Source of the DNA: Thalassomonas haliotis
GTDB lineage: Bacteria; Pseudomonadota; Gammaproteobacteria; Enterobacterales; Alteromonadaceae
Length of the DNA: 64,000 nucleotides
Direction: 5' to 3'
NCBI RefSeq assembly: GCF_028657945.1
Contig: NZ_CP059693.1
Span: forward strand, 1,054,001 to 1,118,000
Shown here: positions 22,084 through 27,801 of the stretch, one piece after another
Layout: every line of letters starts with the position of its first letter
How positions within the stretch are numbered: position 1 is the stretch's first letter
Position numbers and translations under genes: made by a program
Notes under the pieces: model-generated
Databases searched by the model: none
Told to the model about the DNA's origin: nothing
The model's input: the letters and a program-made list of their open reading frames with translations, nothing else

Positions 22084-23082
22084 TTAGTGAAAGATGGCTT
22101 GTTGCTCTCGTTGCCCTGCTATCCATTTTTTCCCCATACGCTGTGCAAAAAGGGATAACTCAGCTAATGACCCCACCGCCCTATGATACTTTTTACCAAA
22201 GTGCTGCGCTAAATCCATCCAGTCATCGCCACAAAAGCCGAGTTGCTGTAACAGTGGATAAGTATTTTCATCAATATAGCCCCGTTTATCTTCCCTGATG
22301 GCTTTACCCGTAGCTTCTACTAGCTCCAAATAATCGAGAAGAGAAAAAGCAATACCGCAAGGGGGGCTTTTATGTTCATTGCCAATAAAACCGAGCAAGG
22401 GCTTAACTTTAAACGGAAGCAATGAAGGGTTATCTTTTTTACTGGCTTTATCATGCGCTCGTTCATAGGCCGAGGTATATTCAGATTCTTGCACGGTACT
22501 CACCATTTTGGCGCGAATAGGGTTTAAATCGACATAAGCCATACAGGCGAGTAGTGCTTTTTCATCCAGTAAGGCTTGAGATTTAAATCTACCTTCCCAA
22601 AATCGCCCCTGGCAGTTATCTTCTTTATTTGCTTTACGGGCAATATACTCATTAAGTGATCGCATTAACCATGAAATATCGCTTAGCCTGCCTCGCCATT
22701 TTTCGATAATTTCCAATGCTGCAGTCTTTTCAGCATTTGTTTTAGCTTCTCCGGATAACCAGCGTTCGACTAAGGGCTTATTGGCATAGAGTTGTAGCCA
22801 GCGACGACAAACTTCCTCATTACTCCAGCTATTGGCTTCCTGTTCATTAACATATACCACTAAATGATAGTGATTTGACATCACCGCGTAAGCGGCCACC
22901 TCAATCGAAAATACCGAGCTAAGAAAACGAATACGGTCAACCATCCACTGCCGCCTGTGCTCATAATTCTTATTGGTATATTCATCATCACCACACAATA
23001 AAGCGCGGCGAATACAGCGGGAAACCAGGTGGTAATAACAGGTATCAGAAAGGGATATCTGGGAGCGTCGTGCCTGTGTCAT
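22084..23082 (-). CDS. REP-associated tyrosine transposase (RAYT, Y1_Tnp)
   Basis: About 332 residues from the ATG at 23082. The Y1 transposase core is at the N-terminus: YYHLVSRCIRRALLCG, then AYAVMSNHYHLVVYVN with the HUH-type metal site HYH, and CMAYVDLNPIRAKMV further on. Proteins of this class nick single-stranded DNA and mobilise or maintain REP palindromes, but are normally single-copy domesticated genes rather than insertion sequences. Repeat clusters on both sides fit this. The extended C-terminal part (about residues 200-332) is typical of the longer RAYT forms of Alteromonadales. Confidence 0.92.
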   Translation of the reverse strand: MTQARRSQISLSDTCYYHLVSRCIRRALLCGDDEYTNKNYEHRRQWMVDRIRFLSSVFSIEVAAYAVMSNHYHLVVYVNEQEANSWSNEEVCRRWLQLYANKPLVERWLSGEAKTNAEKTAALEIIEKWRGRLSDISWLMRSLNEYIARKANKEDNCQGRFWEGRFKSQALLDEKALLACMAYVDLNPIRAKMVSTVQESEYTSAYERAHDKASKKDNPSLLPFKVKPLLGFIGNEHKSPPCGIAFSLLDYLELVEATGKAIREDKRGYIDENTYPLLQQLGFCGDDWMDLAQHFGKKYHRAVGSLAELSLFAQRMGKKWIAGQREQQAIFH

Positions 23083-23145
23083 TTTGAACACCAATGCTAG
23101 CAAAAATAGCCGTGACACAAAGGTAGTTCAGCTTTTCAGATTTAC

Positions 23146-23260
23146 CAAGTTTTGGGTGTCCACGTTTAGAGGGTGTGGGTGTCCACGTTTAGAGGATTGG
23201 GATTCAAGTTTTGGGTGTCCACGTTTAGAGGATTCACGTTTAGAGGATTCACGTTTAGGA
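23146..23260 (+). repeat. Right repeat cluster of the RAYT element
   Basis: GGGTGTCCACGTTTAGAGG occurs three times (23154-23172, 23177-23195, 23213-23231), followed by two shortened copies (CACGTTTAGAGG at 23235, CACGTTTAGGA at 23250). It matches the left cluster in inverted orientation around the shared core GGNTGTCCANGTTT. The cluster runs up to the end of the next minus-strand gene. Confidence 0.85.
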
Positions 23261-23800
23261 TTGTTGATATTCAAGGGTGTTTAGCTGATACCTCACCACC
23301 TCCAGCCACTTTTCTCTTAATACAAATATCCTGCGATCATCCACCATCAGCTGGTCGCGGTTAAACTTGGCCAGGAACCTGTCTATGTACATTTGCTCTA
23401 CCGACAAGTTAAGTTTGATTTCTTTAAGCGGTAGCTGCTTGACCCTGACCGTAGGGTGAAATAGATCTTTGTTTGAGCGGATACGGCGGTATTTATTCCA
23501 TTCCAGCAATGCCAGGTCATGGCTTGGTTGGCTGCTTGTTTCCGGCTGTTTTGGGCAGCGGCAGTGCCTGCTTTGACAAACCGGCAGGTATTGCGCCTGG
23601 CCGAGCTTTTCTATTCGGGGAAGATAGCCACGGCTGCAGGGGCGGGCTTTTACTGTGCTGAGTTTTTTACCTTTGAAGCTGTCGGGGACTATTGGTGCAG
23701 AAACTCCGGCCTTAATGAATCTCAGGTGGTAGGGCTTTACCGATATTTCTATGGCTTCACCGTTTGCAGCCGGCTTGTTAATGTTTGTGTGAATCAACAT
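23255..23800 (-). CDS. Unknown protein, third gene of an accessory operon
   Basis: 181 residues, ATG with AAGGA eight bases upstream. The middle has a Cys/His group (PVCQSRHCRCPK) that could bind metal; the C-terminal half is charged and helical (RVKQLPLKEIKLNLSVEQMYIDRFLAKFNRDQLMVDD). No signal peptide or membrane helix. It lies 53 bases after the Zn-ribbon gene on the same strand. The family is not recognised; the surroundings (RAYT, RHH protein, phage-like regulator) suggest a mobile or phage-derived origin. Confidence 0.7.
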   Translation of the reverse strand: MLIHTNINKPAANGEAIEISVKPYHLRFIKAGVSAPIVPDSFKGKKLSTVKARPCSRGYLPRIEKLGQAQYLPVCQSRHCRCPKQPETSSQPSHDLALLEWNKYRRIRSNKDLFHPTVRVKQLPLKEIKLNLSVEQMYIDRFLAKFNRDQLMVDDRRIFVLREKWLEVVRYQLNTLEYQQS

Positions 23801-23853: not shown

Positions 23854-24276
23854 TCAGCCGATATAAGAGTCTTCGACTAAACCTTTGTTTAAATAGGTAT
23901 TTAATACTTGCTGTAAACGGCGGTTTAAACCGTTGCTCATGGCTTCGTTGACCATGGCGTGGTAACTGTCATGATGGCCACAGGGATTGACCCAGAAATT
24001 GACTTCCAGGCTCTGCCTGCCAATGGATATTTGGGTTTGCATAATTTCGCCACGGGGAGCACCGCAGCGGGGACAATACCAGCTTACCTGTAGCGGCAGC
24101 GTGCATAATTGCAGGCTGCTCCGCGATAAGGCTACCGTGATCTGCCTTATGTCGGCATATCTGGCGCCGGGCTTTACCTGCGTGGTTTTAGCTGACTCTT
24201 TTTTCGTTGATAAAAGGGATGCACAACTCTCCCTAAGAGGATGGTTTGCAAAGCTGTCAAAAGGGAAGTGGGGCAT
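23854..24276 (-). CDS. Zn-ribbon-containing unknown protein
   Basis: 140 residues with a good ribosome site (AAGGA, 7 bases). The second half holds WYCPRCGAPRGEIMQ and, 24 residues on, NPCGHHDSYH, together a plausible four-ligand zinc ribbon. The C-terminus is helical (MSNGLNRRLQQVLNTYLNKGLVED). No family recognised. It sits between the RHH gene and the 181-residue gene. A DNA- or RNA-binding role in a phage- or plasmid-like module would fit, as inference only. Confidence 0.72.
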   Translation of the reverse strand: MPHFPFDSFANHPLRESCASLLSTKKESAKTTQVKPGARYADIRQITVALSRSSLQLCTLPLQVSWYCPRCGAPRGEIMQTQISIGRQSLEVNFWVNPCGHHDSYHAMVNEAMSNGLNRRLQQVLNTYLNKGLVEDSYIG

Positions 24277-24403: not shown

Positions 24404-24613
24404 TCAACCGTAATGAGCTGTTGAAGCATCCCAGTTTTCTATCGGACCAAGACCAAGTGCTTTCTCCTTTATTTCAAGCGACTGTTCTAAAAGTAGTTTT
24501 GCCATCTGTGAAGGTTTCCGCCTTTCTTGGCTGGCCAGACGCATAACCCGTAACTTTAACCTGAGATTGTTAACGCCGATCACCGGGTTAATATCGTTTT
24601 TTTGTGCTTTCAT
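24404..24613 (-). CDS. Small ribbon-helix-helix-like protein
   Basis: 69 residues. The segment LRLKLRVMRLASQERRKPSQMAKLLLEQSLEIKEKA has the short strand plus two helices expected of an Arc/MetJ-type DNA-binding fold, though the match is by eye. It is the first gene of the minus-strand operon, and its start is 20 bases from a 16-bp palindrome, which suits autoregulation. GAGAG precedes the ATG by ten bases. Confidence 0.6.
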   Translation of the reverse strand: MKAQKNDINPVIGVNNLRLKLRVMRLASQERRKPSQMAKLLLEQSLEIKEKALGLGPIENWDASTAHYG

Positions 24614-24733: not shown

Positions 24734-25546
24734 ATGAATGATTGTTTTTTAAAACGATTGGAAAATCATGTGCTTGCAAATAGAAAAATTTACACCTGGG
24801 GCAAGGCTTTAGGAGTAAGTTCCGGAGCGGTTGATAAGTTGTTAAAAGGCGCTGTGCCCGGCATCGACATTCAATTGTCTATGCAGCACAAAGAAAACTG
24901 CAATTTAACCTTTTTAAATACCGGCAAGGGCAAGCCTTTTAATGTTAACAATTTTCCTGCCAGCCAGGGCATGATCGATTACGTGGCCGAGCTGTTAGCA
25001 ACGGCTCCCTGGAATATTTATATTGTCAGGGCCGACAATCTGATCACTTTGGTTTTTCAGCAGCCGGGGCAGTACGAATATAAAACCAAGCTGATAGATC
25101 ATGACGTTTGTGAAGTGCTGGTTGGCCAATATACCGAAGCCGTATATAAATATTTATCGACCAAGCTTGAGCACAACAAGGTGTATTACCCTAAGTTAAG
25201 CGAAGAAGTGATTGAACAGATCACTTCGGGTTATCTGGGTACCTTTGCCTTGTTTGGTGATAAAAAGACTTCCGGAATTTTAAACCATTTGAGTCAGGCA
25301 ACTGCTGTGCTCGATCAACTTCCGTCTACGGTGGCCAGTGAGCAAAACACCGCAGACAGCCACTTAATGCGGGCGGTGATCCGTTTAATTGAACAGGCGA
25401 TTGTTGAAAACAGGATAGAACTGTCGGTAGAGACCCGGGCGAAAGTGATCACTGCCGGTTACAATTACGCAGTTAGAACCGGGAGCAGCGTATCGAGCTT
25501 AGATCCTCACGGCATCTTGGCGATACTTGACACCATAGTTGAGTGA
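24734..25546 (+). CDS. Phage-repressor-like regulator
   Basis: About 270 residues from the ATG at 24734. The N-terminal segment HVLANRKIYTWGKALGVSSGAVDKLLKG reads as a helix-turn-helix that binds like lambdoid/Mu-type repressors; the remainder is mixed alpha/beta without catalytic motifs I can name, ending in a helical domain (LMRAVIRLIEQAIVENRIELSVETRAKVITAGYNYAV). It is divergent from the RHH operon and shares a promoter region with two palindromes, like a lysogeny switch. No phage structural genes are in the window. The 3' end overlaps the convergent membrane-protein gene by 40 bases. Confidence 0.7.
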   Translation: MNDCFLKRLENHVLANRKIYTWGKALGVSSGAVDKLLKGAVPGIDIQLSMQHKENCNLTFLNTGKGKPFNVNNFPASQGMIDYVAELLATAPWNIYIVRADNLITLVFQQPGQYEYKTKLIDHDVCEVLVGQYTEAVYKYLSTKLEHNKVYYPKLSEEVIEQITSGYLGTFALFGDKKTSGILNHLSQATAVLDQLPSTVASEQNTADSHLMRAVIRLIEQAIVENRIELSVETRAKVITAGYNYAVRTGSSVSSLDPHGILAILDTIVE

Positions 25547-26034
25547 TCGGCTCTGCTTTGTTTATGTTCTTGCTCTTGCTCTTGCTCTTGCTCTGCATTG
25601 CAGTAGGTTTCAGCATAATTTAAGCAGTCTATTTTGATCTGGGTATTAACCATGATCCGCTGTTTGGGCGACATATCGGTATTAATAAAGTTGATCTGTT
25701 TTTGCAAAATACTGTGCGCCTGGGAAAACTGCTGATATTGCTGCGGCGACAAGCCCGCCTGTCCTTGTGTCCCCGGAGATAACTGGTAGGGGCTGTTAAA
25801 ATAGCGATTGATTTTCTCAGTGATCAGGTTTAGCTCGTCGACGCTTGCACCGTTGCTTATTGCCTGATGGTATTGCTGCAATAACTGATGTGCGTGATAG
25901 AAAGGAGCGTCTTTATACAAACGGGCGATAACCCGTGCTTTGAGGTTTTTTTCCACTAAGGAAAAAGCGAGAACCATCACCACCATGACAGCTGCGAGTA
26001 GCAAGGGAATATAACTAGCTAATTGAACGTCCAT
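25507..26034 (-). CDS. Membrane-anchored unknown protein with Glu-Gln repeat tail
   Basis: About 175 residues from the ATG at 26034. One N-terminal membrane helix (IPLLLAAVMVVMVLAFSLV) is followed by a helical soluble part (HAHQLLQQYHQAISNGASVDEL ... LSPQQYQQFSQAHSILQKQ) and a tail of EQ repeats coded by four exact 6-base units at 25571-25594. It overlaps the end of the preceding membrane-protein gene by 20 bases, so the two are translationally linked. It is the last gene of the double-glycine peptide operon before IS insertion. Family not recognised. Confidence 0.7.
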   Translation of the reverse strand: MDVQLASYIPLLLAAVMVVMVLAFSLVEKNLKARVIARLYKDAPFYHAHQLLQQYHQAISNGASVDELNLITEKINRYFNSPYQLSPGTQGQAGLSPQQYQQFSQAHSILQKQINFINTDMSPKQRIMVNTQIKIDCLNYAETYCNAEQEQEQEQEHKQSRADHSTMVSSIAKMP

Positions 26035-26467
26035 CTCTGCCTTTAACTCCTTTAATGCTGGCAAATAACAAGATGCCTACAATGATATAATTAATTGGCA
26101 CTACGGTCCAGGTATATAAATCCCAGGTCCAGTCAGGTTCATTCCTGCCCAGAATATTTCGCTGCCAGTGCATATAGGCATAAAAGCAGACGTTAATAGT
26201 CATTAAGACATAAATGCATTTGATGGCTTTGCTGGTGGTCCATAATAGCAAGGCATGTAGGGCTACAGAAGCGATGAAAGCTCCAAAATACAGGTATTCG
26301 AAGGTTTGATACCAAAGGTAAATTTTCTCTGCTCGTGGTAATTCTGAATATGCACCCTGGAGAATGTGGCGAATAGCTGTGGTACTTAAAAATAACAGTC
26401 CAAAGCTGAATATTGGCCAGTTTTTTTGTTTTAAGCTTGAAAATACAGCTAAAAAACATAGTGACAT
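26015..26467 (-). CDS. Polytopic membrane protein, 5' end cut off by an IS element
   Basis: 150 residues remain readable, with four to five helices (IFSFGLLFLSTTAIRHIL, YLYFGAFIASVALHALLLW, AIKCIYVLMTINVCFYAYM, VVPINYIIVGILLFASI). Removing the IS and one copy of its 8-bp duplication joins this frame without a shift to 16 more codons that start with the ATG at 27562, giving an original protein of 166 residues. The natural start and promoter are now 1 kb away. The ATG at 26467 may still be used, from an IS-borne promoter if at all. Family not recognised. Confidence 0.72.
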   Translation of the reverse strand: MSLCFLAVFSSLKQKNWPIFSFGLLFLSTTAIRHILQGAYSELPRAEKIYLWYQTFEYLYFGAFIASVALHALLLWTTSKAIKCIYVLMTINVCFYAYMHWQRNILGRNEPDWTWDLYTWTVVPINYIIVGILLFASIKGVKGRDGRSIS

Positions 26468-26484
26468 AGCTACTATGTCACTAT
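26458..26484. repeat. Perfect 12-3-12 inverted repeat at the IS insertion point
   Basis: ATAGTGACATAG and CTATGTCACTAT flank CTA. The repeat ends exactly where the IS target duplication begins and lies within the coding part of the interrupted gene. Confidence 0.85.
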
Positions 26485-26492
26485 AGTACAGA

Positions 26493-27531
26493 GGCTCTGT
26501 TGTAGAAAATTGTTGTCTATACTGATAAGTGCGACTAACTTATTGAAGGTAATAGCGATGAATACAAAATCATTTGTAGGTAAGCTTAACCAGATAACGA
26601 AAGCACTTTTCTCTATGACACCAGCGCAAAGGGAGAAAGTTCATCAGTCAATTCAAGCATTAGATGCTGAAATCAGCACAGATGAGCTCATTCAGCCACT
26701 TTTTGATGTGTCATCTCAATGCCCGCACTGCCATTCCCGTCATTTAAAAAAATGGGGAAAGTCAGGCGCCATACAGAGGTACCGTTGCAAGGATTGCCAG
26801 AAAACCTTTAATAACAAGACCAATACGCCTTTAGCGAAGCTACATAAGTGCCATCTGTGGGAAGAATATGCGCGCTGTATGGTGTTGAAATTAACGTTAA
26901 GAGAAGCGGCAGATATTTGCGGCATTAATCTTAAAACCGCTTTTTTATGGCGTCATCGTTTCTTAATGGCCCAGGCAGGCAAAAACCAGGATAAGTTGTC
27001 GGGCATTATTGAAGTTGATGAGTTTTTTCTTGCTCGCTCCGAAAAAGGCTCAAAAACATTGGCACACCAAAAGAAGCCTAGAAAACGCGGCGGTAACCTT
27101 GATAAAAGAACGAAAGAAGGTCAGGTGACCGTACTTTTATCTATTGATCGCAGTAACCATATGATTAATGCAATTTTATCTGCTGATACCAGGGCAGAAA
27201 TAGCGGCTCACTTGACTGAGAATATTACAGAAAATTCGGTCTTATGCAGCGATGGCTCCTGGTCATATGTGGAAATAGCCAAGCAAAAAAATTGTGACCA
27301 TAAACGTCTGATAAACAACCAAGTAAGGGTGATAGATAAGGTTTACCATATCCAAACGGTTAATGGCGCGATAGCTCACTTTAAAGGTTGGGTTAACGGA
27401 AAAATGAAAGGAGTTGCCACCAAATACTTATCAAATTATCTTGCGTGGTTTAAAGAAAGCCACGCAAAGCTAGATAAACAGCAAATATTGGTAGCAGCTT
27501 ATGGGTGACAACAATATTATGGAACACAGCC
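26493..27531 (+). mobile_element. IS1595-family insertion sequence, complete
   Basis: The element is 1039 bases. Its ends, 26493-26517 and 27507-27531, are inverted repeats matching at 19 of 25 bases (GGCTCTGTTG... against GGCTGTGTTC...). It is flanked by an 8-bp direct repeat AGTACAGA (26485-26492 and 27532-27539), the duplication length known for this family. One intact transposase gene fills it. The insertion has split the membrane-protein gene of the peptide operon. Confidence 0.93.
26558..27508 (+). CDS. IS1595-family transposase
   Basis: About 316 residues from the ATG at 26558. An N-terminal zinc ribbon (CPHCHSRHLKKWGKSGAIQRYRCKDCQKTF) is followed by a HTH (LREAADICGINLKTAFLWRHR) and the DDE/N-type catalytic core: Asp in IIEVDEFFLA, Asp in VLCSDGSWSY, and VNGAIAHFKGW with the Asn-Lys pair typical of the family. 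The gene ends 23 bases before the right end of the element. It appears intact and so possibly active. Confidence 0.93.
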   Translation: MNTKSFVGKLNQITKALFSMTPAQREKVHQSIQALDAEISTDELIQPLFDVSSQCPHCHSRHLKKWGKSGAIQRYRCKDCQKTFNNKTNTPLAKLHKCHLWEEYARCMVLKLTLREAADICGINLKTAFLWRHRFLMAQAGKNQDKLSGIIEVDEFFLARSEKGSKTLAHQKKPRKRGGNLDKRTKEGQVTVLLSIDRSNHMINAILSADTRAEIAAHLTENITENSVLCSDGSWSYVEIAKQKNCDHKRLINNQVRVIDKVYHIQTVNGAIAHFKGWVNGKMKGVATKYLSNYLAWFKESHAKLDKQQILVAAYG

Positions 27532-27562
27532 AGTACAGAGCATATTGCAGTATATCGCTCAT
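27532..27562 (-). pseudogene. Detached 5' end of the interrupted membrane-protein gene
   Basis: Starting with the ATG at 27562, eight codons (MSDILQYA) lead into the IS right end; they continue in frame with the rest of the gene on the other side of the element. The A of this ATG is also the last base of the TAA of the double-glycine peptide gene (TAATG). Confidence 0.75.
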
Positions 27563-27801
27563 TACTTCGGATGAATACCGTCGCCTGTACGGGCTCTTAC
27601 CGGAGTTGTATCTTTTGTTTCATCATCAGCCGGAGGGGTTACCGGGTCGGTGGTCGTTTTTGTGTCATCCGTGCCGCCAACAACATGCGTCAGCATTTCA
27701 CTATCAAGATCTTTATCTGTCAGGTGATTTTCGGATTGGTTTGAAAGGGTGTCGCCTGATTGTGGCTGGCGTTTGCCAAAAAGTTTAAATAACTTTTCCA
27801 T
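27562..27801 (-). CDS. Double-glycine leader peptide (bacteriocin/RiPP-precursor type)
   Basis: 79 residues. The first 43 form a leader: basic start (MEKLFKLFGKRQ), then HLTDKDLDSEMLTHVVGG, which has the L-x-D/E-x2-L pattern and terminal Gly-Gly of peptides cleaved by C39-peptidase ABC exporters. The predicted mature 36 residues are rich in Thr, Asp and Pro, without Cys, ending in VRARTGDGIHPK. The stop overlaps the start of the next gene (TAATG). No modifying enzyme or C39 exporter lies in the window, so it may be exported by a system elsewhere or be an orphan. Ribosome site is weak. Confidence 0.7.
   Translation of the reverse strand: MEKLFKLFGKRQPQSGDTLSNQSENHLTDKDLDSEMLTHVVGGTDDTKTTTDPVTPPADDETKDTTPVRARTGDGIHPK

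Follow-up and report, generated by a model that had tools for sequence, protein, structure and literature searches.

A phage-associated module of a short peptide and a five-helix membrane protein at a Thalassomonas haliotis locus: possible recognition of secreted oligopeptides

The operon in the window

A stretch of 64,000 nucleotides of Thalassomonas haliotis DNA (hereafter, the window) raises the question of what is encoded by a short peptide gene that runs into two genes for membrane proteins. The preliminary description had offered two possible readings of this set: a double-glycine peptide accompanied by proteins for immunity or export, or a new signalling unit. That frame proved right, but it missed that the membrane gene is broken here by an insertion sequence and that the module is phage-associated.

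The peptide gene was located at 27562..27801 of the minus strand, the strand being absent from the preliminary description, and encodes 79 aa: a GG leader of residues 1–43 (27673..27801, minus strand) ending in LTDKDLDSEMLTHVVGG, the last residues of which, LTHVVGG, were aligned in four orthologues, and a Thr/Asp/Pro-rich core of 36 residues. The peptide ends in the motif TGDGIHPK (27565..27588, minus strand), of which DGIHPK is invariant in the four orthologues and a paralogue. The GG-type leader is present in the window peptide and its orthologues and absent from some relatives. The ORF is more than a chance frame: the peptides of the four orthologues can be aligned over their whole length, and dN/dS is 0.16–0.47 (Nei–Gojobori, six pairs). 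For the same six pairs, dN/dS was 0.13–0.28 for the membrane protein, 0.09–0.15 for the one-helix protein, and 0.06–0.18 for the convergent repressor-like gene. Curated bacteriocin models were not matched by the window peptide in Pfam/NCBIfam-type scans.

The TAA of the peptide gene shares a base with the ATG of the five-helix membrane gene (TAATG), as described before; this gene, however, is not intact. Its first codons, MSDILQYALY, were found at 27532..27562 (minus strand; by comparison with the intact orthologue L019/L020) and the remainder at 26015..26484 (minus strand; 65% identical to the paralogue, query residues 9–166). The gene is disrupted after codon 10 by an IS1595-family (ISXO2-like) insertion sequence at 26493..27531 of the plus strand. 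The element has the features of the ISXO2 group of IS1595: a transposase ORF (26510–27508, plus strand) with the DDE_Tnp_IS1595 domain (PF12762, E 5.6e-15), terminal inverted repeats of 25 bp, 80% complementary, and an 8-bp target-site duplication AGTACAGA (27532..27539 and 26485..26492, no strand; the repeat finder gives 9 shared bases). Six full-length copies with 97–100% identity are present in the genome, another of them scoring equal to the window copy; therefore, the insertion is probably recent. The element is active-looking. Since it cuts the membrane partner, the window copy of the module is probably dead or reduced.

The third gene (25507..26034, minus strand; orthologues in relatives) encodes a one-helix protein of 175 aa with an N-terminal membrane anchor, recognised by eye, and a Glu/Gln-rich stretch near the end. 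It starts at 26034, 20 bases before the membrane gene is complete at 26015, so that the two genes overlap, and none of the three proteins had a Pfam match above the cut-off; the preliminary description had noted both this overlap and the lack of recognised enzymes. A repressor-like gene (24734..25546, plus strand) is convergent with the operon, and a small gene of 69 aa is located at 24404..24613 of the minus strand. Both are related to genes beside the module of prophage L024, with 31% identity for the former and 47% over 58 columns for the latter. The L024 counterpart of the repressor-like gene, in the equivalent position, matches PHROG repressor families; no PHROG match was obtained for the window gene itself.

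Relatives in bacterial genomes and phages

In the T. haliotis genome (one contig, 6.45 Mb), an intact paralogous operon was found at 5.349 Mb; its peptide of 80 aa has KVAGG, a different core, and the end SDGIHPK. A second intact unit, more distant, is located at 0.966 Mb. Three congeneric genomes (L020, L021, and L023) contain the intact orthologous operon, and the order of peptide, five-helix, and one-helix genes, the conservation of which had been in question, is kept in relatives and phages. A gene of a PAAR-like protein, by eye possibly a type VI secretion tip protein, adjoins the paralogous operon (L028 8427–9332; G000, about 5.35 Mb).

A membrane-protein profile had matches in 41 of 395 genomes of the taxonomic family, belonging to 10 of 52 genera, and locus regions were taken from all 41. 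The genome samples of the different searches overlap. Profile A1 matched 4 of 394 genomes of the order, all from the family of T. haliotis, and 2 of 369 of the class: the T. haliotis genome and a marginal fragment with a stop. With the broader profile A2, 247 genomes from the order gave 8 matches (G238 is a false hit; the rest include other families), and 350 from the class gave T. haliotis only. Seven new places were obtained with A2, six of them with a Gly/Pro peptide upstream; the seventh, L126, contains a stop and was discarded as a false hit. We rejected the view of the three-gene set as an isolated oddity of the window, given the relatives found by these searches, and also that of a module common across the class, given the A1 and A2 counts there. 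The plasmid collection, searched with one query, gave no match.

Profile comparisons gave E values of 1.6e-12 between the window type and the phage-like type of the membrane protein, 8.8e-24 between the phage-like and the array type, and 2.8e-7 between the window and the array type, which supports homology of the types. The peptide, five-helix, and one-helix proteins all remained below the curated cut-offs of Pfam/NCBIfam; PHROG and PADLOC gave no convincing match, the one-helix proteins reaching PHROG only at E 0.048–0.097. No title or abstract start found in the open-licence PMC literature describes such a family.

The module was present in the predicted viral contigs L029, L127, L128, and L134–L139; the contigs of L135 and L138 start at the membrane gene, the peptide region lying outside them. 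It was also present in isolated Peduoviridae—the Pseudoalteromonas phages C5a (KY045851) and ACA1 (OR438928)—as gp5–gp7, which encode a GG peptide, a membrane protein, and a one-helix protein, are all annotated as hypothetical, and lie between a gene annotated as peptidase or SOS-sensing protease and the immunity repressor. Section 3.3 of PMC10612066 discusses the ACA1 immunity region without these genes, and the terms gp5, gp6, and bacteriocin do not occur in the main text of that paper.

The phage genes resemble the Thalassomonas module in gene order, GG-type leader, five-helix and one-helix proteins, and a repressor nearby; they differ in the membrane protein, which has 18% identity to its Thalassomonas counterpart and weak profile support. 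The leader of gp5 is followed by GGGGGGVEPP. TIGR01847, a signal for cleavage and export, is noted in the ACA1 record as a weak HHpred hit of gp5; C5a gp5 had no match in the NCBIfam scan. The sequence link of the C5a-type membrane protein to the rest is weak (hhalign probability 30%; 1.5% against A1). What connects C5a gp6 with the family is its gene order, its fold, and a homologous one-helix partner (E 4.4e-8) rather than its own sequence. The window-type one-helix protein showed no sequence link to the phage-like type.

A tblastn search of the phage collection with six membrane proteins yielded, for two of them, only five records of the C5a/ACA group and, for the other four, no match; further scans of viral contigs found no relative. 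On the T. haliotis chromosome, the repressor adjoining the 0.966 Mb unit shares 46% identity with the immunity repressor of C5a, indicating that the phage-type regulator and the module stayed together there; phage structural genes were not seen alongside by eye.

The Gly/Pro motif and its leaders

Directly ahead of its first membrane gene, every one of the 56 loci examined has a short ORF under a loose criterion (at least 30 aa, with an end between −124 and +25 bases relative to the membrane gene). The window is excluded from this count, and the loci are not independent, comprising orthologues as well as the near-identical C5a and ACA1. By the preliminary description, a peptide frame that is not conserved, or membrane proteins that mostly occur without it, would have spoken against the unit; homologues keep the peptide, and all these loci have the short ORF. 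Because the criterion is loose, motif counts are also given. Exact GGG was present in 32 of the 56 upstream ORFs and in 4 of 407 other small ORFs from those loci (38–130 aa, non-overlapping, candidate peptides removed), two of these four being further peptides of the module. GG followed by Pro within seven residues was present in 38 of the upstream and 20 of the other ORFs. We read the loci lacking GGG as mostly carrying the variants DGIHPK, DGINPP, GGVYIPP, RAGG, and RGG; the peptides of L040, L083, and L099 have no recognisable Gly run or motif variant.

Across the wider family, the motif takes the forms GGGGV.PP, RGGGIIKT, and DGIHPK. The L139 peptide, with TGG followed by NGGGGDGIVPP and NGGGGDGIIPP, joins the Gly-run form to the DGIHPK form of the window, and TGDGIHPK of the window is proposed as the equivalent of GGGGDGIVPP / GGGGVYVPPK in relatives. 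Some precursors contain 2–9 copies of the motif. In L078, pairwise codon differences among nine RGGGIIKT copies were 147 synonymous and 0 non-synonymous, against 53 and 62 in the linkers; the corresponding ratios for the repeat units were 7:0 in L068, 9:0 in L136, 3:0 in L024, 12:0 in L121, 14:0 in L122, 14:2 in L128, 6:1 in L139, and 6:1 in L072. The peptides of L121 and L122 both start with a Sec-like signal; the former contains a GGGGVEP unit five times and the latter a GGGVEP unit six times, five of these six fitting the longer pattern used in the codon comparison. Several kinds of leader before one motif, together with repeats under strict purifying selection, point to a short peptide as the product.

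In viral contig L136 (1585–4610), two modules that differ from each other stand in tandem, each with peptide, membrane, and one-helix genes; the first of the two peptides has two NTGGIIILNPKK copies. A second motif resembling DTVSIS.EA was seen in many precursors (e.g., L080 3992–4198, L068 5816–6115, and L024 6594–6872), where it stands before, between, or after the Gly/Pro motif. A relation of the DTVSIS leader to FlgM was dropped, as Pfam gave no support.

Crude regular expressions, which misfiled some peptides and missed that of L121, assigned the leaders of 62 loci, including the window, to the DTVSIS (24), GG (19), and Sec-like (3) classes, 16 being unassigned. The GG leader was rejected as the defining feature, the motif also standing behind Sec-like or other leaders. 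The framing of the module as a GG-peptide system holds for the window and its orthologues, but the wider family shares the short Gly/Pro motif more than the leader.

Sub-cut-off matches, mostly in the leader, were obtained in Pfam for three of eight GG-type peptides (ComC, 0.057; Bacteriocin_IIc, 0.1; type-A lantibiotic, 0.0052; also unrelated families) and in NCBIfam for four of ten (TIGR04149; EntF, 0.099; cerein, 0.03; TIGR01847, 0.091; lacticin; RaxX). ComC and the EntF induction factor are of pheromone type, and Bacteriocin_IIc, cerein, type-A lantibiotic, and TIGR01847 belong to the bacteriocin side. These matches support the GG-leader reading but speak for both a pheromone and a bacteriocin; the standing of the two was therefore left as before.

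The leaders and repeats also bear on whether the peptide leaves the cell at all. In a phage exclusion or abortive infection system, the five-helix protein would act in the membrane as an effector or block entry, and the peptide would be its non-diffusible regulatory subunit or inhibitor. Several prophages and phages have the module next to the integrase or close to the repressor, sites that often hold accessory genes of lysogens. Many precursors have no recognisable export signal (for instance, the 24 of 62 with a DTVSIS-type leader by the crude expressions), and the loss of the membrane gene in the window with the peptide kept would be harmless if the peptide were an inhibitor. We nevertheless regard such a system as improbable: GG leaders and Sec-like signals ahead of one motif argue for export, multi-copy motifs would be odd for a subunit, and none of nine proteins submitted to PADLOC had a match.

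Membrane proteins, their arrays, and possible functions

The AlphaFold2 model of the Thalassomonas membrane protein had five helices (pLDDT 86.6, pTM 0.80), and that of C5a gp6 five long helices and one short (pLDDT 84.6, pTM 0.77). Foldseek found no fold match in the PDB (best E 0.51). In BFVD, both models weakly matched (TM 0.50–0.60, E 0.075–0.13) the same uncharacterised phage membrane proteins: K4JPZ4 of phage phiCbK, A0A6J5NI52, A0A2I7RSY3, and A0A2I7QVX0. None of the membrane proteins scanned reached the Pfam cut-off. Loop charges weakly suggest that the N terminus is outside and the C terminus inside. No column was invariant in an alignment of 32 membrane proteins; among 112 family sequences, the most conserved positions include Tyr134, Trp131, Asn108, and Tyr69 (in 104, 92, 91, and 86 sequences, respectively), as well as position 118, which is Asp in 90 sequences and Gln in the window type. 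By the helix limits of the model, residues 134, 131, 118, and 69 would lie near the periplasmic ends of helices 3–5.

A five-helix protein constantly paired with a small ORF might be the processing enzyme or exporter of the peptide rather than its receptor or target. AgrB, a membrane peptidase with conserved catalytic Cys/His, is similar in size, and His87 is kept in 10 of 10 aligned phage and Thalassomonas proteins. However, neither A2 nor A3 has an invariant Cys or Ser in its alignment (A3 has one nearly invariant Ser column), His87 does not rank among the top 14 columns by conservation when 112 sequences are aligned, the array paralogues behind one peptide are strongly diverged, and a PDB fold match is missing. 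An AgrB-like role is, thus, very unlikely.

In Pseudoalteromonas-like loci, which we take to be such from their argH–coaD context, judged by eye, a single peptide gene precedes a tandem series of one to nine membrane genes. A total of 111 membrane ORFs were counted in 50 sources (108 after removal of two overlapping regions), gene fragments being included in the smaller arrays; the largest were L099 with nine, L083 with eight, and L097 with seven genes. In a midpoint-rooted tree without proteins under 140 aa, one clade (support 0.758) comprised 26 of 26 first-position proteins, among them those of single-gene loci of this group, and 0 of 53 downstream ones. A one-helix gene was not seen by eye in Pseudoalteromonas-type arrays, and therefore the common core is the peptide and the five-helix protein. 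No repressor was recognised alongside the listed arrays and L002.

One peptide before up to nine diverged membrane proteins looks more like an immunity repertoire than a set of receptors. In such a system, lysogens would secrete an antibacterial peptide, the five-helix protein would protect them, and the downstream array genes would be orphan immunity genes; the separate first-position clade fits a cognate immunity gene with orphans. Strings of tandem, non-identical small immunity proteins such as tsaI behind one cognate locus are described for type VII toxins (PMC9484751), although there the locus has a large toxin gene instead of a peptide precursor. The prophage location suits lysogenic conversion, and the GG leader, C39 domains in the genome, sub-cut-off bacteriocin and lantibiotic leader matches, and a small membrane partner directly 3′ of the peptide recall double-glycine bacteriocins and class II microcins. 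The module differs from these in having other leader types on the same motif and multi-copy motifs. The conserved units of 7–12 residues, mostly Gly-rich and repeated up to nine times, are unlike known class II bacteriocins, and no bacteriocin model was reached at cut-off among the peptides scanned. In the window, the partner is broken and the peptide intact, which speaks a little against a lethal toxin, unless cross-protection comes from the paralogue. On balance, a bacteriocin-like peptide with immunity is possible, if on the unlikely side.

Short repeated units favour a signal with its receptor, as the arrays with their separate first-position clade favour a toxin with immunity; in either case, arrays behind one peptide argue for membrane proteins that recognise peptide variants. 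We consider the signal and receptor likelier, closely followed by the toxin and immunity, and tentatively regard the module as phage-derived and serving recognition of a secreted oligopeptide, a reading that falls somewhat short of an even chance. The sequences themselves show the gene order, the conservation, the motif, the repeats, the phage association, and the predicted five-helix fold, whereas export, processing, binding, and signalling are what we infer here. The precursor would be exported through its GG leader, presumably via a host C39 exporter, and in relatives by a Sec-like signal or another leader type. The active part would be the short Gly/Pro motif at or near the C terminus—DGIHPK here and RGGGIIKT, KGGGGVKT, HGGGGVYVPPK, or NGGGGDGIVPP elsewhere—and several copies may sometimes be released from one precursor. 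The peptide would be recognised by the cognate five-helix protein at the outer face of the inner membrane, while the one-helix protein may relay or tune the response via its soluble tail. The use would be to sense the population or kin, with the genes for it residing in a prophage beside the immunity repressor.

A dedicated C39 exporter was not found in the window locus, and none was recognised by eye in the other loci. Elsewhere in the genome, where the preliminary description had suggested looking, three C39 peptidase domains were found in frames of 711–761 residues, none closer to the locus than 700 kb; two adjoin a gene resembling, by eye, that of a membrane-fusion protein. GG export is therefore plausibly available in trans. 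No kinase or other recognised output protein was found in module loci.

A parallel in phages is arbitrium (RRNPP family), which likewise has a short peptide of a temperate phage beside a putative partner and near lysogeny genes. There, a cytoplasmic tandem-repeat (TPR-type) receptor is encoded next to the propeptide; the partner in our module is, in contrast, a predicted five-helix inner-membrane protein, and the hosts are Gram-negative. To our knowledge, temperate phages have been established to exchange peptide signals in Gram-positive hosts only, and Gram-negative bacteria seldom use peptide pheromones that are sensed by membrane receptors. A wider proposal, which we hold as doubtful, is that Gram-negative temperate phages and their hosts possess a class of extracellular oligopeptide communication, with Gly/Pro pheromones and five-helix receptors, which bacteria captured and expanded into chromosomal receptor arrays that read the dialects of neighbours. 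If true, pheromones in multi- or single-copy precursors would inform lysogens or kin; in the case of a toxin with immunity, the module would still represent a peptide family not known before, organised with arrays of immunity genes and present in P2-like phages as well. The peptide and membrane-protein family has no name, although it occurs in cultivated phages and marine bacteria, and its motif is short enough for synthesis.

Several other genes of the window lie beyond the small gene of 69 aa. Two minus-strand genes (23255–23800 and 23854–24276) gave no Pfam match above the cut-off, and their counterparts adjoin the module in L019, L021, and L023. Positions 22084–23118 encode a protein resembling, by eye, REP-associated tyrosine transposases, and the translation of 23084–23364 repeats FRG-type units, which suggests short DNA repeats.
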